DNA from: a virus
Reading direction: 5' to 3' (one strand)
DNA length: 20,916 bases
IMG/VR virus record: IMGVR_UViG_3300033142_000712
Span: 16,144 to 37,059 of that record
The stretch's first letter is position 1, and each line of letters begins with the position of its first letter. The notes beneath the pieces are model-generated. The model ran no database searches, was not told where the DNA came from, and saw only the letters and a program-made list of their open reading frames with translations. This document shows, one piece after another, positions 2,454-19,838 of the stretch. A program made the translations under genes and the position numbers.

Positions 2454-2641
2454 TAAATAAGACCTTTTTCTTCTGCCAACCATTCGTGAATAAAAATAGT
2501 TTCTGGGTCATTCTCTTCACCAGAATAATCGTCAATTTGTGACCTTGGAATCCATACAACGTTATCATTCAAATCTAATACTTGCAATGCTAACTCTGTA
2601 TGTGCTGTAACTTCTACGTTTACTTCAATCAGGCTGCTCAT
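2453..2641 (-). CDS. Hypothetical phage protein with WIPRSQI motif, 62 aa
   Basis: First gene of the leftward operon, with AAAGGA about 8 bases before its ATG and a consensus promoter 40-70 bases upstream. It begins with beta-strand-like sequence (SLIEVNVEVTAHTE), then VWIPRSQIDDYSG and ends IFIHEWLAEEKGLI. The combination of W-I-P-[KR]-S-Q-I with a terminal E/PEWLAEEKGL is familiar from small phage proteins of unknown role, probably a compact beta fold. First position implies early, strong expression. Confidence 0.7.
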   Translation of the reverse strand: MSSLIEVNVEVTAHTELALQVLDLNDNVVWIPRSQIDDYSGEENDPETIFIHEWLAEEKGLI

Positions 2642-2682
2642 CTAATATTCCTTTCGGTTGTGTGTTGTAATTCTCTGGAGCA

Positions 2683-2711
2683 AATATAACACTGTATAAC
2701 ATTAAAGTCAA
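2683..2711 (-). promoter_or_regulatory. Leftward sigma70 promoter
   Basis: On the minus strand TTGACT (2711-2706) and TATATT (2688-2683) are separated by 17 bases. This fits host sigma70 consensus at 5 of 6 positions in each box. It would start transcription near 2677, giving a leader of about 36 bases to the gene at 2641. The plus-strand heptamer TATAACA occurs at 2685-2691 and 2695-2701, exactly one helical turn apart and overlapping the -10 box, which suggests an operator. Confidence 0.75.
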
Positions 2712-2761
2712 TTTAGGTTTTTCGTTGGTGCTATGTGCTATTCCTTATATATAGGGGGATT

Positions 2762-2790
2762 TTGACCAGCCATACAGTATATTGTAATAT
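2762..2790 (+). promoter_or_regulatory. Rightward sigma70 promoter P1
   Basis: TTGACC (2762-2767) and TAATAT (2785-2790) are spaced by 17 bases. It faces away from the leftward promoter, so the two -35 boxes lie about 50 bases apart. The -10 box sits inside an inverted repeat (2784-2810), suggesting repression or activation at this site. It would drive the operon beginning at 2893. Confidence 0.7.
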
Positions 2791-2810
2791 GCTTATATAC
2801 GTCATATTAC
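2784..2810. promoter_or_regulatory. Inverted-repeat operator candidate over P1 -10 region
   Basis: GTAATATG (2784-2791) and CATATTAC (2803-2810) are perfect inverted 8-mers around an 11-base spacer. A second, overlapping inverted repeat is GTATAT (2777-2782) with ATATAC (2795-2800). Both cover the -10 box and start site of P1. They could be bound by the RHH-like product of 2226-2453 or another regulator. AT-rich DNA makes such palindromes easier to find by chance, so this is only a candidate. Confidence 0.45.
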
Positions 2811-2813
2811 CTA

Positions 2814-2841
2814 TTGCATCGTACAAGAATGCTGGTATAAT
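2814..2841 (+). promoter_or_regulatory. Rightward extended -10 promoter P2
   Basis: TATAAT (2836-2841) is perfect and preceded by TG one base upstream (TGGTATAAT), the extended -10 form. A weak -35 (TTGCAT, 2814-2819) lies 16 bases upstream. The start near 2848 gives a leader of about 45 bases to the ATG at 2893. The same TGnTATAAT core recurs at 3979, 6776 and 10166. Confidence 0.7.
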
Positions 2842-2892
2842 AGAGCCATGATTCAAGAAATTATATTTCTATAATCCACAAGGAAAACGAAA

Positions 2893-3183
2893 ATGAATAA
2901 TGAATACAATGGTCATAGTTTTATCGCAAAAGATGTAAAAGGTAAACTTTCAAAATCAGAATTCAAAGGTTTGGATATTTGGTTTTCGTATGCTGAACCA
3001 ATAGCTATTTCTAATGGTGAAAGAGTTATTGTAAACTCTGAGCTATTCTCCCCAACGACAGCAAGACATATTTCTTATGTCAAAAAAATACACACTGAAA
3101 TCGATAATTTACCATTTAATGAGTTTAATGATAAACTCAAAAAAATTCTTGATGGTAAATCAGAGGGGCGGTGGTATGATTAG
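2893..3183 (+). CDS. Hypothetical phage protein, 96 aa, TTARH motif
   Basis: First gene of the rightward operon, with AAGGAAAA before the ATG. It contains an aromatic, beta-rich stretch (LDIWFSYAEPIAI) followed by LFSPTTARHISYVKKI. The order 'FxYxxPIA ... S.TT.RH' resembles a widespread family of small phage and plasmid proteins of unknown role; I cannot name it with confidence. It ends RWYD, with its TAG overlapping the next start by 8 bases. Confidence 0.7.
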   Translation: MNNEYNGHSFIAKDVKGKLSKSEFKGLDIWFSYAEPIAISNGERVIVNSELFSPTTARHISYVKKIHTEIDNLPFNEFNDKLKKILDGKSEGRWYD

Positions 3184-3595
3184 TCAAAGTTTTTTACTTG
3201 CTGGTAATGCAACATTCACTGTATCCAATCCAGACGGTGACCATTACACATTCAAAGTAAAGAAAACGAAACATAAAAATGCTAATGGGAAATATAGATT
3301 TTTTATAAGCATTCTTACTGGGCCGGATTTCTATACATACTTAGGAATGGTTGTCTCTCCACATGACGGATGTGGTCAGGTAACTTTAACCCAAAAATCA
3401 AAATACATAATAACCTCGATTCCATTTAGAGTTGCTAATTGGGCTATCCAGCACGTATTTGCAAATGTACCAGAACCAAAAGGTTATAAGATTATCAACG
3501 CTGGTAGATGTGGCAAGTGTGGTAGGAAGCTTACTACGCCAGAATCAATTGAATCAGGTCTCGGACCGATATGTAGAGGTAAACGTGATGAGTAA
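3176..3595 (+). CDS. DUF6011-like zinc-finger phage protein, 139 aa
   Basis: The C-terminal 30 residues carry a zinc-ribbon-like motif, GRCGKCGRKLTTPESI followed by GLGPICRGK. This matches the DUF6011 type (CxxCgrxL...SixxGxGPxC). The N-terminal 100 residues are beta-rich (NATFTVSNPDG, FFISILTGPDFYTYLG). The ATG at 3176 has GAGGGG seven bases before it and makes the 8-base overlap typical of this operon. An upstream in-frame ATG at 3077 would bury the start deep in the previous gene. The domain's function is unknown. Confidence 0.75.
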   Translation: MISQSFLLAGNATFTVSNPDGDHYTFKVKKTKHKNANGKYRFFISILTGPDFYTYLGMVVSPHDGCGQVTLTQKSKYIITSIPFRVANWAIQHVFANVPEPKGYKIINAGRCGKCGRKLTTPESIESGLGPICRGKRDE

Positions 3596-4605: not shown

Positions 4606-4856
4606 TGGAAAATACGGAAGAGTTTGAAACTGCATTACAAAATGTTTGGCAAGCAATAGGTAGTGACGTATTAGAAATGTGTGATAATAATACAGCTAGT
4701 AAATCAGAAGTTATTGAAATGGTTTTAGACGCAAACAGAATAAACAACTTTGGAAATTTAACGCCAGAATTATTGTCTGAATGGAACAGCTTAGATTTAT
4801 GTGACAAGATTTCAGTTGCGAAAAAATCTTTCAACCATAGCTTTTACGGATATTAA
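4605..4856 (+). CDS. Hypothetical phage protein, 83 aa
   Basis: Function not recognised. The ATG at 4605 forms TAATG with the preceding stop and has GGAG eight bases upstream, so I prefer it to the in-frame ATG at 4578. The protein is acidic and helical (MENTEEFETALQNVW, SKSEVIEMVLDANRI) and ends with an aromatic SFYGY. It has no membrane segment. Confidence 0.65.
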   Translation: MENTEEFETALQNVWQAIGSDVLEMCDNNTASKSEVIEMVLDANRINNFGNLTPELLSEWNSLDLCDKISVAKKSFNHSFYGY

Positions 4857-5054
4857 ATGATAATGAGTAAAAGGTTTGGAACCGCAACTATCATACATGA
4901 AGGTATACATTATTTCGCAAATGGTTTCAAATATTTTGAACATAATGTAAGTTCAAGCGTTGCGCACAGAGTTGGTAATGCGTGGATAAAAGATACAATT
5001 AAAATAACCATCAATTTAGCAAATGAATTGATTGATTACGCTGACAGGCATTAG
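4857..5054 (+). CDS. Hypothetical phage protein, 65 aa
   Basis: Function not recognised. The ATG immediately follows the previous TAA. A second ATG at 4863 (MSKRFG) could also be used, and the Shine-Dalgarno is weak for both. The product is small, contains several His residues (IIHEGIHYF, FEHNV) and ends with a helix (ITINLANELIDYADRH). The HEGIH stretch resembles HExxH only superficially, because it lacks the family context of a metalloprotease. Confidence 0.6.
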   Translation: MIMSKRFGTATIIHEGIHYFANGFKYFEHNVSSSVAHRVGNAWIKDTIKITINLANELIDYADRH

Positions 5055-5063
5055 GAGAATGAA

Positions 5064-5297
5064 ATGAAAATATTAGTTTTTATATCTGTATTTCTTATTA
5101 TCGTTACAGCTTGTGGACAAAGAATATATGATCGTTGGCAGGTAAAATGTGATAGTGGATTTGAAACGCCAGTATCCCACTGGACATATATAGATGATGG
5201 CGCTATACATTGGAGAGTTAATAAAAAGGGGCAATCGTTTGTAAGAAAAATGTTGCCCGGCGAAGTCTGTACAGACAAAAGGATAAAAATGAAATGA
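5064..5297 (+). CDS. Small phage lipoprotein, 77 aa
   Basis: The N-terminus is a lipoprotein signal: MK, a hydrophobic core (ILVFISVFLIIV) and the lipobox VTAC with lipid-modified Cys at residue 17. The mature 61 residues hold two more Cys and two Trp. The residue after the Cys is Gly, not Asp, which would favour outer-membrane sorting in enterobacteria. AGGAGA lies five bases before the ATG. Small phage lipoproteins such as T5 Llp block the receptor against superinfection; that role here is only analogy. Confidence 0.75.
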   Translation: MKILVFISVFLIIVTACGQRIYDRWQVKCDSGFETPVSHWTYIDDGAIHWRVNKKGQSFVRKMLPGEVCTDKRIKMK

Positions 5298-5739: not shown

Positions 5740-6174
5740 ATGACTGTAAAAAATATAGTAACCAATGAGAAAAAGCTATCCCTTGTGAGCCTTTATGTAG
5801 ACAGCTATACAGAGGTTTTAGGGATTGCCAGTGACCTAGTAGATACAGCTATTTTTTACTCTAAGATGCCCATAGGCTGTGTCGGTTTAGCATGTAATCA
5901 AATTGGAATACTTAAAAGAATTATTGTTATACGGTTTGAAGGTAGCTGGTTGGTTATGATTAATCCAGTTATTGAGGAAGCGTGGGCAGGTAAGTTCAAC
6001 GCAAAAGAAGGTTGCTTGTCACGTCCCGGTAAGTCAGTTAGCATGAGAAGATACAAGAAAATAAGAGTTACTTATACTGACGTTACAGGTGACAGAATAA
6101 ACAAAAAATTTACGAAGTTTAATGCGAGAGTTATACAACACGAAGTTGACCATCTTGATGGTAAGTATATATAG
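5740..6174 (+). CDS. def: Peptide deformylase
   Basis: The enzyme removes the formyl group from the N-terminal Met of new proteins. All three family motifs are present: GLACNQ (49-54, family GxGxAAxQ), EGCLS (90-94, with Cys92 a metal ligand) and QHEVDHLDG (133-141, with the two His as metal ligands and Glu as catalyst). At 144 residues it is shorter than most bacterial enzymes (about 170), missing the C-terminal helix as phage forms often do. The Ala-to-Cys change in motif 1 is mild. Phage deformylases are known, especially in marine phages. Here it may support rapid phage protein maturation when the host enzyme is limiting. Confidence 0.9.
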   Translation: MTVKNIVTNEKKLSLVSLYVDSYTEVLGIASDLVDTAIFYSKMPIGCVGLACNQIGILKRIIVIRFEGSWLVMINPVIEEAWAGKFNAKEGCLSRPGKSVSMRRYKKIRVTYTDVTGDRINKKFTKFNARVIQHEVDHLDGKYI

Positions 6175-9849: not shown

Positions 9850-10161
9850 ATGGCTGATATAGTGATAGATAAGAGCTTAAATGTGCATCTGGGGCTACCA
9901 GAGGACTACCAGTTAGACAAGGGTGAAGCCTTTAAGCTATGGCAGTATTTTATGACCATGCTTGAAGACAAAAGACCAATCGGTAATTTGTTAGTATCAT
10001 ATTACATAGATTTTCACGGTGATGTGGTAAACAATCCAAAATCAAAACAGGATGAAATTGTACGAGATATAATACTTAATATGGATAAGAAAGACCAGTT
10101 TGAGATAATGACGGAAATGGCGGCATATCCAGACGGTTACAAAGTTGACAACGAAGAGTAA
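9850..10161 (+). CDS. Hypothetical phage protein, 103 aa
   Basis: Function not recognised. AAGGA lies ten bases before the ATG. The protein is acidic and soluble. It begins VIDKSLNVHLGLPEDYQ, has a helical middle (AFKLWQYFMTMLEDKRP, IGNLLVSYYIDF) and ends in an acidic stretch (DNEE). The -35 box of the next promoter is inside its last codons. Confidence 0.65.
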   Translation: MADIVIDKSLNVHLGLPEDYQLDKGEAFKLWQYFMTMLEDKRPIGNLLVSYYIDFHGDVVNNPKSKQDEIVRDIILNMDKKDQFEIMTEMAAYPDGYKVDNEE

Positions 10162-10174
10162 AGTGTGTTATAAT
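10145..10174 (+). promoter_or_regulatory. Strong promoter before the Sak4-like gene
   Basis: TTGACA (10145-10150) and TATAAT (10169-10174) both match sigma70 consensus exactly, with an 18-base spacer, and a TG at 10166-10167 adds the extended -10. It starts near 10181, 20 bases before the ATG at 10201. It is the best promoter in the window. Confidence 0.8.
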
Positions 10175-10200: not shown

Positions 10201-11001
10201 ATGGCTATAAAATTAACAACAACGAGTCAAAGCTCACGCTTTGTAAAAGCACTAGGTTATGGTGATGCCGGTGTAGGTAAAACTGTTTTATGTTCTACAG
10301 CGCCTAATCCAATTATCATATCAGCAGAAAGTGGTTTATTATCACTTGCGCATTTAGATATTCCAGTTATTGAAGTGAAAACTTTGGAAGATGTAAATGA
10401 TGCATATCGTTTCTGTACTGAATCAGAAGACGCAAAACATTTTGAAACTGTATGTTTAGATTCTATTACTGAAATTGCAGAAGTAATGCTTAACAAGTAT
10501 AAGAAAGAAGATAAAGACCCACGCAAATCTTATGGCTTGTTAGCTGAAAATATGTCAGAACTTGTTCGTGCTTTTAGAGATTTAGAAAATCGACATGTTT
10601 ACTTCTCTGCTAAGATGACACGGATTGAAGATGAACATACTGGCATATCTACATTCCGACCAATGATGCCGGGTAAAACTTTGGTTAATGGTTTGCCATT
10701 CTTCTTTGATGAAGTTCTTGCATTACATATTGGCAAAGAAGAAGATGGTACTCCATTCCGTTATATACAAACTGAACCTGATATGCAATACATAGCAAAA
10801 GATCGTTCAGGAAATCTTGATACAATTGAGCGCCCAGATTTAACTCATCTATTTGATAAAGTATTAGGTGAAGCAAACCCACGCTTATCAGAAAATCAAA
10901 TGACAAATAAAAATGCTGGTGCAGCTACAGCTAAACAAGAAGAAGACCAGAAATCTGAATCAGAAGAAACCGAAGTAGCAAAATCTGATAAAGAAGATTA
11001 A
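10201..11001 (+). CDS. Sak4-like RecA-fold ATPase (single-strand annealing/recombination)
   Basis: It belongs to the phage AAA_24/Sak4 group, RecA-core ATPases that assist strand annealing or exchange with a single-strand-binding partner. Walker A is GDAGVGKT (21-28); the Walker B-like strand is VCLDS (84-88). The core runs to about residue 230 (DLTHLFDKVLGEANP), then a low-complexity acidic tail (KQEEDQKSESEETEVA) that may contact partners. AGGAG precedes the ATG. It has its own strong promoter. The DUF669 gene next to it is the usual neighbour of this group, which supports the call. Confidence 0.85.
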   Translation: MAIKLTTTSQSSRFVKALGYGDAGVGKTVLCSTAPNPIIISAESGLLSLAHLDIPVIEVKTLEDVNDAYRFCTESEDAKHFETVCLDSITEIAEVMLNKYKKEDKDPRKSYGLLAENMSELVRAFRDLENRHVYFSAKMTRIEDEHTGISTFRPMMPGKTLVNGLPFFFDEVLALHIGKEEDGTPFRYIQTEPDMQYIAKDRSGNLDTIERPDLTHLFDKVLGEANPRLSENQMTNKNAGAATAKQEEDQKSESEETEVAKSDKED

Positions 11002-11009
11002 TTCTACCC

Positions 11010-11062
11010 TGCCGCATTTAGGACTACATACCAGTGTCCTATCTGCATCTACGGCATTTTTT
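11010..11062 (+). terminator. Terminator-like structure after the Sak4-like gene
   Basis: The 5-bp stem TGCCG (11010-11014) with CGGCA (11052-11056) closes an inner hairpin TAGGAC (11019-11024) with GTCCTA (11036-11041). It is followed at once by six T (11057-11062). Two extra pairs, CA (11015-11016) with TG (11044-11045), bridge the stems; CATCTA is bulged on the 3' side. The imperfect stem makes it weaker than a classical intrinsic terminator, but the position just after the stop codon fits. Confidence 0.5.
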
Positions 11063-11070
11063 AAAATAAC

Positions 11071-11079
11071 TGGTATGAT
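11071..11079 (+). promoter_or_regulatory. Possible extended -10 promoter for the DUF669 gene
   Basis: TG (11071-11072), G, TATGAT (11074-11079) is an extended -10 element with one mismatch, placed 9 bases after the T run of the preceding terminator. The -35 is poor. A weaker alternative for this gene is TTGCTA (11178-11183) with TATATG 17 bases on (11201-11206). Either would give the gene at 11274 its own transcript. Confidence 0.4.
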
Positions 11080-11184
11080 CGCATATGTTGTGTCTGGGTA
11101 TTCCTTGTAAATATCCACACCTACATGACAGTATGCGACGGTTAATGCACGCTAAGTATAGTCCTAGTTAGTGATGTTGCTAGG
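11079..11184 (+). ncRNA. Candidate structured RNA or replication-origin element (unclassified)
   Basis: This lies in the 272-base gene-free stretch at 11002-11273. A long imperfect hairpin pairs TCGCAT (11079-11084) with ATGCGA (11133-11138), ATGT (11085-11088) with ACAT (11123-11126), GTGT (11090-11093) with ACAC (11117-11120), and GGGTAT (11096-11101) with ATATCC (11111-11116), for 20 base pairs in all. Downstream, CCTAG (11163-11167) pairs with CTAGG (11180-11184), and its loop TTAGTG (11168-11173) can pair with CGCTAA (11150-11155), giving an H-type pseudoknot. It could be a regulatory leader, a small RNA or an origin. It matches no RNA family I know. If transcription begins near 11086, the outermost stem would be lost. 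Confidence 0.45.
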
Positions 11185-11236
11185 CACAAATTCTAATAGT
11201 ATATGGGAGCTATTCAAAATCCCTAAAATTAAGATG

Positions 11237-11249
11237 GTAGCGTAGCTAC
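11237..11249 (+). promoter_or_regulatory. Small hairpin upstream of the DUF669 ribosome-binding site
   Basis: GTAGC (11237-11241) and GCTAC (11245-11249) pair around a GTA loop, 13 bases before the GAGG Shine-Dalgarno (11263-11266). It could shape the leader of the single-strand-binding gene. It is short, so this is a modest candidate. Confidence 0.3.
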
Positions 11250-11273
11250 ATAAAATGAAAGTGAGGTAGTAAA

Positions 11274-11777
11274 ATGGCAGAACTAAACTTTAATGGTGCT
11301 GGACAAGATGCGATGGACGACTTTTCAGTTGTTCCTCCTGATACATACAATGTCCAAATCGTAAAATCTGAAGTTGTTCCAACCAAAAAGAAAGATGGAA
11401 CATTGTTAAAAACTCAGTTCAAAGTTATCGATGGTAAGTTTAAAGGTCGTATCATTTTTGGACAGTATAATTTAACAAATCCAAACCCGCAAGCAGTAGA
11501 AATTTCTAAGAAACAAATGAAAACTCTCTGTGACGCAATTGGCAAACCTGATGGTGTAAAAGATTCTAATGAGTTGCATAACGTTCCATTGCAAATCAAA
11601 GTGTCTGTTAAAGCAGCAGAAGGCAATTATGCCGAGCAAAATGAAATCAAGTTTTATAGCAAGTATGACGGTCCAAAGACTGAAACAGCATCTAGTGAAG
11701 GTTCTAGTGCTGCTAATCCTGCTAATCCTGCTTCTGCTGAAGTTAAAGCTGAAGGCGGAGCTCCTTGGGCTAAATAA
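11274..11777 (+). CDS. DUF669-type single-strand-DNA-binding protein
   Basis: It matches DUF669: a PPDTYNVQIVKSEV strand pair, KDGTLLKTQFKVIDGKFKGR (about 41-60), IIFGQYNL, and a helix with ISKKQMKTLCDAIG, then a further strand region ending NEIKFYSKY. These phage proteins have an OB-type fold and are considered single-strand-DNA-binding proteins that pair with Sak4-like ATPases. A flexible Ala/Ser/Pro linker (ANPANPASAE) leads to the end GGAPWAK, a short tail typical of the group and a possible partner-docking site. GAGG lies 7 bases before the ATG. It has a structured leader and probably its own transcript, as expected for a protein needed in many copies. Confidence 0.82.
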   Translation: MAELNFNGAGQDAMDDFSVVPPDTYNVQIVKSEVVPTKKKDGTLLKTQFKVIDGKFKGRIIFGQYNLTNPNPQAVEISKKQMKTLCDAIGKPDGVKDSNELHNVPLQIKVSVKAAEGNYAEQNEIKFYSKYDGPKTETASSEGSSAANPANPASAEVKAEGGAPWAK

Positions 11778-15762: not shown

Positions 15763-16199
15763 TAGTAGTTGTAGATTTAGAAAATACGATATCTGATGCT
15801 AGACATCGCATGTGGCTTTTAGAATATAATAAAGTTCCAGAAAAATATAAAAATAAAGAATACATTAAACAGTTTCAAGAAAGTTTTGTTGATGATGATA
15901 TAAACGTTAATGTAAAAATGTTTATTGATTCATTATCTAAGAAAGGTCACACAATCGTTATTCTTACTGCCAAACATGAAAGATATCGCAACATGGTAGC
16001 TGAGTGGTTAAGGAAATATGAAGTTAAGTTTGACGTTTTAATAATGAAGCAATCTGCAAGTGAAGAAGATTTAGAATTTAAAAGAAAATATATTGCACTT
16101 AACAGAGACGTTATTAGTTTTGCTCTTGATGACGTTGGTAGTATATGTGCAGTGTTTGGGGAATACGGCGTACCATGTTTGAGGATTGAACAAAAATGA
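15759..16199 (+). CDS. HAD-superfamily phosphatase-like protein, 146 aa
   Basis: It resembles the phage HAD group near polynucleotide 3'-phosphatases and nucleotidases. Motif I is VVDLENTISDARHRMW (4-19). The nucleophile Asp6 is present, but the usual second Asp is Glu8, and Gly is Asn (ENT for DGT). Motif II is VILTAK (Thr70), motif III is a Lys in FKRK (108-111) and motif IV is LDD (123-125). Activity is likely but altered by the Glu. Its ATGA overlaps link it to the FAD-like gene before and the exonuclease gene after. Substrate unknown; a 3'-phosphate end or a nucleotide is plausible. Confidence 0.75.
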   Translation: MIVVVDLENTISDARHRMWLLEYNKVPEKYKNKEYIKQFQESFVDDDINVNVKMFIDSLSKKGHTIVILTAKHERYRNMVAEWLRKYEVKFDVLIMKQSASEEDLEFKRKYIALNRDVISFALDDVGSICAVFGEYGVPCLRIEQK

Positions 16200-16741: not shown

Positions 16742-19557
16742 TGTATCATTTAACATTAAAATCGGAATATAGTTTTGGACAAACTTTTAGTTTCTTAAAA
16801 GAAATTCACGATGATTATTCTCATAATAATGTAATTGGTATTGCAGATACAAACACACTTGGTTTTTATAAACTTTATGAAATGTGTAAGAAGTCTGGTA
16901 AGAAAGCGATATATGGTTTGAGGGTATCTGTAGTAAAAAATGCATTAGAGAAAGTAAAACCTAGAGGTCAATTTGGTAAAGAATATATAATCATAGCGAA
17001 GAATTATTCTGGATTGCAAGAGATTTTTATGCTTTACAAAATACAATCAAGTGAATCTAATTTTTACTATAGAGGTAATATAAGCGTTACTGATATAGAT
17101 AATCTTAGTCAGAATGTATTCGTCATTTCTACAGACCCAATAGCTAACCGTCTAGATTATATTGGTGTAAACCATATGACAAGGCCAAAAGTATTAGCTT
17201 ACGATTACCCAAAATTATACATTGAAAATAATTATTTCTTAAAGAATGAAATGAGAAAAATCTACGAATTAATGGCAGGTAACAAAACAGATAATAAAAC
17301 GTTCCCACAACACGTTCTATACAGGGATGAGATTCGTGATTTTGGAACTGAATGCGTTGATAATCTTCAAGTGATTGTTGACGGATGTGAAGTTATAGAA
17401 CTTAAAAAAGCAGAAAATATTAGATATAAAGGTAAAGGTAATATCATAGATTTATGCAAAGAAGGTGCTGTTAGAAAAGATATAGATTTAAACGACCCAA
17501 TATACAAAGCAAGATTTGATAGAGAGATAAAGCTTTTAGCAGATAAAGACTACGGTGATTATTTATTAGTTGTTGCAGACTTAATAAAAGAATCTAAGAA
17601 ATTCTGTTTAGTTGGTGGAGGTCGTGGCTCAAGTGCTGGCTCATTAGTTTGTTATTTACTTGATATTACTGAGGTTGACCCTTTAGTACATGGATTGATA
17701 TTTGAGCGTTTTGTTGATATTAATAGATATGACCCGCCAGATGTTGATACAGATTTTCCAGACAAAGCAAGAAAGAAGGTTGTAAAATATCTTGAGAAAA
17801 CTTACGGAATAGATAATGTAAAAACTATTTCAACTATTTCAAAATATAAACCTAAAGTTACTATTGGCGAATTTGCTAAACATATGGAAATTCCAAAGTT
17901 TGAAACAGAAGCAGTAAAAGATGTAATCATTGAGAGGGCCGGTGGGGATGCAAGGGCATCATTCTGTTTAGAAGATACTTTGTTAGGAACGGATGTAGGC
18001 AAAGAGTTCATAGCAAAATATCCTCAAATGATTAATGTAAAATATGCAGAAGGTCATTCTAAACAGAAAGGTAAACATGCTGCCGGAGTAATTGTATGCA
18101 ATGAACCAATTGTAGAATATTGCGGAATAGATATGAGAGACGGAACTGCAATGCTTGATAAGAAAGATGCAGAGAAACTTAATCTATTAAAGATTGATGT
18201 ACTTGGACTAAGAACGTTATCAGTATTACAAGATTGTGCTAAAGCTATAGGAATGGATTATAGAGAATATTACAAGCTACCTTTAGATGACGAGAAAGCT
18301 TATAAAGTATTCAAGAATAAAAGACTTAACGGTATCTTTCAGTTTGAAGGTGAGGCAATGAAATCTATTAATGATTCTGCGCCTATGGAAAAATTTACTG
18401 ATATAGTTGCTGCTGGTGCATTAGGAAGGCCGGGAGCATTATCATCAGGTGGTACATCAAGATACGTCCAGCTAAGAAATGGAACTAGAGAGCCATTATA
18501 TTATTGCCCTGAACATAAGAAGCTAACAGAAGAAACATACGGTATTGTTATCTATCAAGAACAAATGATGTGGATATGCAAAAACGTTGCTGGCATGACT
18601 TGGGAAGATGTATCTGATTTGAGAAAAGCAGCGTCTAAATCTTTAGGCGAAGAGTTTTTTGATAAGTATAGAATTAAGTTCGTTGAAGGTGCATGTTCAC
18701 TTTCTGGTTATGATGAAGAAACAGCTAACAAAGCTTGGCTTGATATAAGTTCTATGGGGTCATATGCCTTTAACAAGTCTCATAGTGTGGTGTATGGTCA
18801 AATAAGTTACTGGTGTGCTTACATGAAGGCTCACCATCCGATAGAGTTTATAGCATCGATTCTTAACAATGCAAAAGATGATGATAGTTCATTAAAGATA
18901 CTTCGTGAATTTTATGAATCAGAAAATTTAATATTCAAACCAGTTGACCCTTGGAAATCAAAAACTAATTGGGAGATTGTTGACGGAACATTGCTAGGTG
19001 GTCTTACTAATATAAAAGGTATTGGAACTTCGAAAGCTTTGAATATTATAAGTATGAGAAATGGCAAGAAACCATTCACGCCAGCCATGAAAAATCATAT
19101 GAACTCTCCTAAAACCCCATTTGACATACTATATCCAGCTAAACACCACTGGGGGGAGCTATACAGAAACCCTATAAAATACGGGTTAAATTCTATTGAC
19201 TATATAAAAGATGTGGAATCGCCAAGAGATTATGCTATAATAGGTAAAATGATTCATGTGGATGATGTCGATGTTAATGATGTACAATCTATTGCTAAAA
19301 GGGGTGGTGAGGTATTGGACGGCCCAAATATGAAAGTTCATGTTAGACTAGAAGATGATACTGGCGTTATGATGTGTATTGTAAACAGATTTGTATATGA
19401 GCAATTATCACAAGATTTTCTTAGAGAGAAAGTTGGAGATACTTGGTTTTGCGTTATTGGCAAAGTAATGGCAGGTGCTAAAATATTATTTGTAAAAGAA
19501 GTGGCTAACCTGAATAGAGATATAGGGTTGAATGATTCCGAGGAGCAAAGAGAATGA
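16741..19557 (+). CDS. dnaE: DNA polymerase III alpha subunit, DnaE family
   Basis: The phage replicase. The N-terminal PHP-like domain has lost its metal ligands: HLTLKSEYS stands where HxHxxxS is usual, and IADTNTLG where TDHgn is usual. The palm is intact: VGGGRGSSAGSLV (291-303), PDVDTDF (333-339, catalytic Asp336 and Asp338), KHAAGV (445-450), KIDVLGL (484-490, Asp486), and the fingers segment FNKSHSVVYG. An OB domain near the C-terminus is followed by a short acidic tail. At 938 residues it is shorter than E. coli DnaE (1160) and lacks much of the C-terminal tail region. I see no clear clamp-binding motif. It is made together with the separate DnaQ-like exonuclease. Confidence 0.95.
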   Translation: MYHLTLKSEYSFGQTFSFLKEIHDDYSHNNVIGIADTNTLGFYKLYEMCKKSGKKAIYGLRVSVVKNALEKVKPRGQFGKEYIIIAKNYSGLQEIFMLYKIQSSESNFYYRGNISVTDIDNLSQNVFVISTDPIANRLDYIGVNHMTRPKVLAYDYPKLYIENNYFLKNEMRKIYELMAGNKTDNKTFPQHVLYRDEIRDFGTECVDNLQVIVDGCEVIELKKAENIRYKGKGNIIDLCKEGAVRKDIDLNDPIYKARFDREIKLLADKDYGDYLLVVADLIKESKKFCLVGGGRGSSAGSLVCYLLDITEVDPLVHGLIFERFVDINRYDPPDVDTDFPDKARKKVVKYLEKTYGIDNVKTISTISKYKPKVTIGEFAKHMEIPKFETEAVKDVIIERAGGDARASFCLEDTLLGTDVGKEFIAKYPQMINVKYAEGHSKQKGKHAAGVIVCNEPIVEYCGIDMRDGTAMLDKKDAEKLNLLKIDVLGLRTLSVLQDCAKAIGMDYREYYKLPLDDEKAYKVFKNKRLNGIFQFEGEAMKSINDSAPMEKFTDIVAAGALGRPGALSSGGTSRYVQLRNGTREPLYYCPEHKKLTEETYGIVIYQEQMMWICKNVAGMTWEDVSDLRKAASKSLGEEFFDKYRIKFVEGACSLSGYDEETANKAWLDISSMGSYAFNKSHSVVYGQISYWCAYMKAHHPIEFIASILNNAKDDDSSLKILREFYESENLIFKPVDPWKSKTNWEIVDGTLLGGLTNIKGIGTSKALNIISMRNGKKPFTPAMKNHMNSPKTPFDILYPAKHHWGELYRNPIKYGLNSIDYIKDVESPRDYAIIGKMIHVDDVDVNDVQSIAKRGGEVLDGPNMKVHVRLEDDTGVMMCIVNRFVYEQLSQDFLREKVGDTWFCVIGKVMAGAKILFVKEVANLNRDIGLNDSEEQRE

Positions 19558-19838
19558 AGCTTCCAGTAAATTATGATGAGCTTAGTATTACTGATAGACG
19601 GCTTGTTAGAGAAGAGTACATAAAAATGCAAGATGGTAGATGTCAATATTGCCAACAACCATTAAAATTTCCTATTCCAGAAAAAGCAAAAAGAAATAGG
19701 CCGATAAATAAAAATCTGTTTCCTAAAGGATTTTTCAAATGGCCTATACATTTACACCATGACCACAATACGGGAATGACAATAGGCGCAGTTCATAACT
19801 ATTGTAATGCTGTTCTATGGGAATATCATAACCAATAA
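19554..19838 (+). CDS. HNH endonuclease, recombination endonuclease VII-like, 94 aa
   Basis: It has a CQYC zinc pair (residues about 31-34) and the core LHHDHNTGMTIGAVHNYCN (68-86), with the HHDH and CN positions of the beta-beta-alpha-metal fold. Where many endonuclease VII-like proteins have CxxCN, this has HNYCN, so a His may replace one Cys in the zinc site. It could resolve branched DNA or nick phage DNA. AGGAG lies 8 bases before the ATG. The ATGA overlap with the polymerase suggests it is a fixed part of the operon rather than a free homing gene. Confidence 0.75.
   Translation: MKLPVNYDELSITDRRLVREEYIKMQDGRCQYCQQPLKFPIPEKAKRNRPINKNLFPKGFFKWPIHLHHDHNTGMTIGAVHNYCNAVLWEYHNQ

Follow-up and report, generated by a model that had tools for sequence, protein, structure and literature searches.

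What does a phage genome keep between two genes when the surrounding DNA is densely packed with them? The question is raised by the window analysed here, a stretch of 20,916 nucleotides of the virus record IMGVR_UViG_3300033142_000712 (positions 16,144 to 37,059), in which the gene of a Sak4-like AAA ATPase (10201-11001, PF13479; sak4) and a DUF669 gene (11274-11777, PF05037; ssb) are separated by a gap. DUF669 proteins encoded beside sak4 were shown to be single-strand-binding proteins (SSBs) (PMC5928155). According to the ORF boundaries the gap spans exactly 11002-11273, and both flanking ORFs are intact. Neither a tRNA nor an Rfam family was found in it.

A preliminary description, made from the letters of this DNA, listed for this gene-free region a terminator-like fold, an extended -10, a 60-base hairpin, a possible pseudoknot, a small hairpin and a Shine-Dalgarno sequence, and all of them are present. 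Comparison with related phages regroups them: judged by this comparison, the gap is a lineage-specific structured RNA of ~175 bases, here called element A, followed by a leader of ssb, called element B. Conservation extends to the 60-base hairpin and a 9-base pairing but not to the six-T fold or the extended -10, while the small hairpin falls into the separate leader and not into the structured RNA. The most constrained part of the gap, a 22-base strand at 11143-11164 located 3' of the 60-base hairpin, was absent from that list.

Directly upstream of sak4 the + strand carries a consensus sigma-70 promoter (10145-10174, TTGACA-18-TATAAT, 12/12 match), and promoter-like sequence is found at the equivalent position in two relatives, L001 and L003. 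By its sequence this promoter is most likely the start of the transcript. Elsewhere in the window the phage encodes a peptide deformylase (5740-6174, PF01327, E 1.7e-32), and a small ORF with Cys/His motifs typical of HNH proteins (19554-19838, CQYC...HLHHDHNTG, read by eye only) lies directly 3' of a DNA polymerase III alpha-like gene.

A conserved structured RNA downstream of sak4

An IMG/VR search with the Sak4-like and DUF669 proteins revealed the relatives L001 and L003, whose Sak4 proteins are 80% and 79% identical to that of the window. L050 and L051 were found by a subsequent alignment-based search; their DUF669 proteins are about 58-61% (L050) and 55% (L051) identical. Two of these viral contigs, L001 (about 1012-1223) and L050 (about 668-829), contain homologues of element A at the same sak4-ssb junction and on the same strand. 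Homology to these two under the model R1, together with the consensus fold, delimits element A in the window to about 11010-11184 on the + strand, where all of its parts described below are located as well.

Taken alone, the window sequence folds with modest stability (z -2.36; 4/200 shuffles), and it is the comparison with the two homologues that is decisive. The three-sequence alignment A8 (window, L001, L050), on which all pair counts were taken, folds with a consensus energy of -28.3 kcal/mol; the average of 500 column shuffles was -6.6 (sd 2.5), and not one shuffle was as low (z -8.8). The reverse strand gives a less stable consensus (-22.0, z -6.8). Three helices, P1, P-alpha and P-beta, pair in register in all three sequences, with 95.8% of the cells paired compared with 22-46% when the partners are slid against each other, and together they comprise eight double-compensated pairs. 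On this comparative evidence element A is a real conserved structured RNA: two related viruses have retained its shape but not its sequence. A lack of conservation and covariation in related phages would have counted against the structure proposed in the preliminary description; the opposite was found.

No Rfam 15 family matches, in agreement with the earlier statement that no named RNA family fits. In the window no family reached the gathering threshold, and neither the window region nor L050 gave a match at E<=10; L001 gave two weak and unrelated ones, U54 and a plant-virus pseudoknot (E 4.5 and 9.5). An HDV-like topology was considered and rejected: between P-alpha and P-beta there is no strand that could serve as its P1, and no Rfam match was obtained.

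Parts of the fold

P1 is formed by GACTA (11022-11026) and TAGTC (11159-11163). The repeat in the window comprises eight bases, of which the outer three pairs are not conserved, so that these five pairs define the helix best. One of its pairs is double-compensated (C-G to U-A in L050), and G-U variants and one mismatch occur. A local hairpin that uses a P1 strand competes with P1, and the two folds may therefore alternate.

P-alpha immediately follows the 5' strand of P1 and is a perfect 9-base inverted repeat of CATACCAGT (11027-11035) and ACTGGTATG (11069-11077). All nine pairs are kept in all three sequences, two of them by double compensation. This is the pairing behind the possible pseudoknot of the first description, and as a conserved pseudoknot-like pairing it belongs to element A. 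Its 3' strand overlaps the extended -10, TGGTATGAT at 11071-11079.

P-beta is the 60-base hairpin (11079-11138), for which about 20 base pairs had been claimed and about 21 are found. It is conserved as a part of element A: the outer seven pairs form in all three sequences, five of them double-compensated, and a bulged G (11131 in the window) stands in the same CAGTnT context in each.

The invariant strand TAATRCACGCTAAGTATARTCC (11143-11164, 22 bases) contains the 3' strand of P1. Over 11143-11165, 21-22 of 23 positions are identical among the three phages, while four-fold codon sites between the phages carrying element A are near-saturated at 33-52% identity. A possible hairpin of four pairs with the seven-base loop ACGCTAA (11149-11155) can be drawn inside this strand. 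Directly 3' of P1 the hairpin P-gamma (11164-11183) keeps its position in all three phages with differing sequences (CCTAG/CTAGG, CCTAT/ATAGG and CCTGCCTC/GAGGTAGG).

A further pairing, S1, is proposed between TGCCG (11010-11014), the base of the terminator-like fold, and CGGCA (11052-11056) inside the P-alpha loop. Complementarity with other letters exists at the same position in L001 (TACAAT/ATTGTA) and L050 (ATACCGAC/GTCGGTAT), each case being weak individually against shuffled loops (p 0.14, 0.30 and 0.02). Joining the 5' flank to the loop in this way, S1 and P-alpha would make an H-type pseudoknot, which these complementarities suggest.

Distribution of the RNA

Three members are known so far. 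A search of 579 kb with model R1 found these three loci at 128.4-153.6 bits (window 153.6, L001 144.4, L050 128.4) and a next best locus with E=2.7; R1 was trained on the same three members, so that their own scores are not independent evidence, as the compensatory changes and the shuffles are. The distance from element A to the start codon of ssb is similar in all three phages, about 81-95 bases, and it is held even in L050, whose ssb leader is unrelated in sequence.

L003 encodes equally similar proteins and lacks element A; it has a small ORF in its place and keeps the ssb leader. Since so close a relative does without it, element A is dispensable in some phages. L051 has just a short spacer between sak4 and ssb, and in the cultured Queuovirinae PaMx25, 9g and FritzHoffmann the two genes abut or overlap.

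The invariant strand occurs as a single copy in each phage record, and when 2.9 million viral contigs were scanned for its pattern, only these phages and coding look-alikes turned up. The look-alikes were obtained with exact and gapped DNA patterns and rejected, nearly all of them sharing a reading frame; one match of the exact or gapped DNA pattern, in L042, lies inside an HNH ORF and was judged to be chance. Likewise attributed to chance were two matches in a pattern scan of bacterial genomes, where the structure is absent (the pattern used would also miss L050), and a single weak match (E=0.009, many broken pairs) that the model gave in one of 274 genomes, all from a single bacterial class. 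Among cultured phages and plasmids blastn detected no homologue.

HNH genes are found between sak4 and the DUF669 gene of other phages, in L006 (about 4612-5144, read from the sequence) and in L180, the Rhizobium phage RHph_X2_25 (1834-2472, annotated). By analogy with segG before gene 32 in T4, the sak4-DUF669 junction seems to be a homing target.

The ssb leader

Element B, at about 11195-11273 on the + strand, is recognized by its identity to L003 and L001. The leader is 84% identical to L003 (window 11176-11273) and 80% to L001 (11181-11271), compared with 43-52% at four-fold sites. It contains two hairpins, GGGA/TCCC and GTAGC-GTA-GCTAC (the latter at 11237-11249), and the Shine-Dalgarno sequence GAGGT (11263-11267, + strand); the small hairpin and the Shine-Dalgarno of the first description are both here.

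H-type pseudoknots were found in the leaders of L003 (6943-7026, GGGA/TCCC with the core TATTCA/TGAATA) and L050 (826-909, GTAGC/GCTAC with ATTCAG/CTGAAT), in each case with 0/400 shuffles. Under the same rules none was found in the leaders of the window and L001. An A/U-rich stretch over the ribosome-binding site is clear from the sequence in L050, the leader of the window being the one with the two hairpins.

What element A may do

We predict, with a confidence that falls a little short of even, that element A acts in cis within the sak4-ssb messenger and controls ssb. Transcription from the promoter at 10145-10174 would yield sak4, element A and ssb on one messenger. A phage or host factor would bind element A via the invariant strand, and the element would then set the output of ssb, in that translation is blocked or freed or the messenger is processed between sak4 and ssb. 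This reading is favoured because element A sits at a fixed place ahead of ssb, keeps a similar distance to the start codon and is under strong constraint as an RNA. It is further supported by the same junction and strand in three of three phages, by the single copy in each phage, by the lower z score of the + strand (-8.8 versus -6.8 for the reverse) and by a promoter that is seen only upstream of sak4. Counting against it are L003, which lacks element A, and the more distant L051, PaMx25 and 9g, in which sak4 and ssb nearly abut, as well as the small number of three members and a fold more complex than that of the T4 operator. As L003 has the ssb leader only, control of ssb cannot depend on element A everywhere.

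A related proposal, possible and put forward with reserve, is that TAATRCACGCTAAGTATARTCC together with P1, P-alpha and P-beta defines a new pseudoknotted phage RNA family that may act as a dedicated device in the recombination module. The device could be a protein-binding operator, a riboswitch-like sensor or a trans-acting counter-defence RNA, and our reserve applies to these options jointly with the family.

The absence from L003 also means that expression of ssb does not generally depend on element A, and therefore an independent trans-acting phage RNA stays a serious rival, although we regard it as rather unlikely. Such an RNA would be cut from the sak4-ssb messenger and reach a host or phage target via the invariant strand, for example as a decoy or antisense RNA. 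A compact fold in which an invariant sequence is unpaired or lies in a loop would suit it, and so would the presence or absence at a junction which holds other accessory inserts (the small ORF of L003; HNH genes in L006 and RHph_X2_25) and the persistence of the ssb leader in L003 without element A. Against this stand the position, always the same junction and nowhere else, and the invariant strand itself, which has no complement of at least 10 bases within the 37-kb phage record.

The six-T fold and the extended -10 would be accounted for if an intrinsic terminator or an attenuator separated sak4 from ssb and the remainder of the gap held a new transcription start, but this is improbable. In the window TGCCG and CGGCA are indeed followed by T6 (11057-11062), and L050 has a strong alternative hairpin before TATTATTT; a simple terminator scanner did not list the TGCCG...CGGCA-T6 fold. 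L001 lacks the T tract, and in L050 it is weak. Both phages read CAGTATGAC in place of the extended -10, which is lost there because the site is merely one strand of the 9-base P-alpha helix. P-beta and the invariant strand are left unexplained. With a -10 confined to the window, a T tract that is not conserved and a conserved promoter upstream of sak4, the suggested self-contained transcription unit for the single-strand-binding gene is not upheld.

More doubtful still is the reading of element A as what degeneration has left of a mobile RNA, for instance a group I intron. P3, P7, P8, P9 and the J8/7-P7 segment of such introns may have their counterparts in S1, P1, P-beta, P-gamma and the strand AAGUAUARUCC; the helix order is similar, P1 reads GACUA/UAGUC in the window, and homing endonuclease genes occur at the same junction in relatives. 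However, with seven bases between the 5' strands of S1 and P1 there is no room for P4-P6, and the equivalent of the guanosine-site pair is G-C, G-C and, in L050, C-C. Apart from the two unrelated weak matches of L001, Rfam gave nothing at E<=10 for the window or L050. No gene is split, and the pattern is one of active conservation, not of decay.

Very improbable is a role at the DNA level, as a replication origin or as a promoter for a phage polymerase. The position of the gap within the replication module, the words TAATAC and TATA seen in L001 and L050 and the faint resemblance of TAATACACGCTAAGTATAG to a T7-type promoter would fit. However, no sign change of GC skew occurs near 11 kb, the site has a single copy, the compensatory changes, accompanied by G-U pairs on one strand, speak against a DNA-level reading and fit a + strand RNA better, and a T7-type polymerase (PF00940) was not found in the phage records, which may be fragments, although the T7 positive control was detected. 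The origin suggested earlier for this gap is therefore not supported. GC skew is positive throughout 3.5-20 kb and changes sign around 2.5-3 kb. The sign change at 2500-3500 of the window coincides with a switch of gene direction, which makes this region by sequence a better candidate than 11 kb for an origin or a divergent control region.

Comparison with known systems

The P3-P9 domain of group I introns would share with element A a similar helix order and a similar strand on the P7 side. Candidate structured RNAs derived from metagenomes are alike in being intergenic, found by covariation and unassigned in function (PMC2864571, PMC8040213). Compared with those deposited in Rfam, to which this comparison extends, element A has no Rfam 15 match, and its three members are all located at one phage junction. 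The present study adds a covariation-supported structured RNA without Rfam counterpart, located in uncultivated phages between the annealase gene and the SSB gene. Should it turn out to act in trans, it would count as a new RNA effector of phages.

The closest parallel to the cis-acting control of ssb that we favour is gene 32 of T4, which encodes the phage SSB: a pseudoknot in its leader serves as operator, and the A/U-rich stretch behind it, which covers the ribosome-binding site, is less structured (PMC535899). The T4 operator comprises about 28 bases, whereas element A has about 175 bases, several helices and an invariant strand; the leader of the window has no clear H-type pseudoknot; and by any test made here gp32 and the DUF669 SSB are not homologous. 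The likeness, on our side one of predicted structure, is that in T4 and RB69 as well as here a phage SSB gene of a recombination module is closely preceded by a structured RNA, with a pseudoknot that in our case is proposed. In the leaders of L050 and L003 an H-type pseudoknot precedes a ribosome-binding region rich in A, and in both systems the junction draws homing endonucleases (segG in T4, HNH in the relatives described here). If element A does control ssb, SSBs of the DUF669 type would be set by a structured leader like T4 gp32, and two unrelated SSB families would have converged on this solution.
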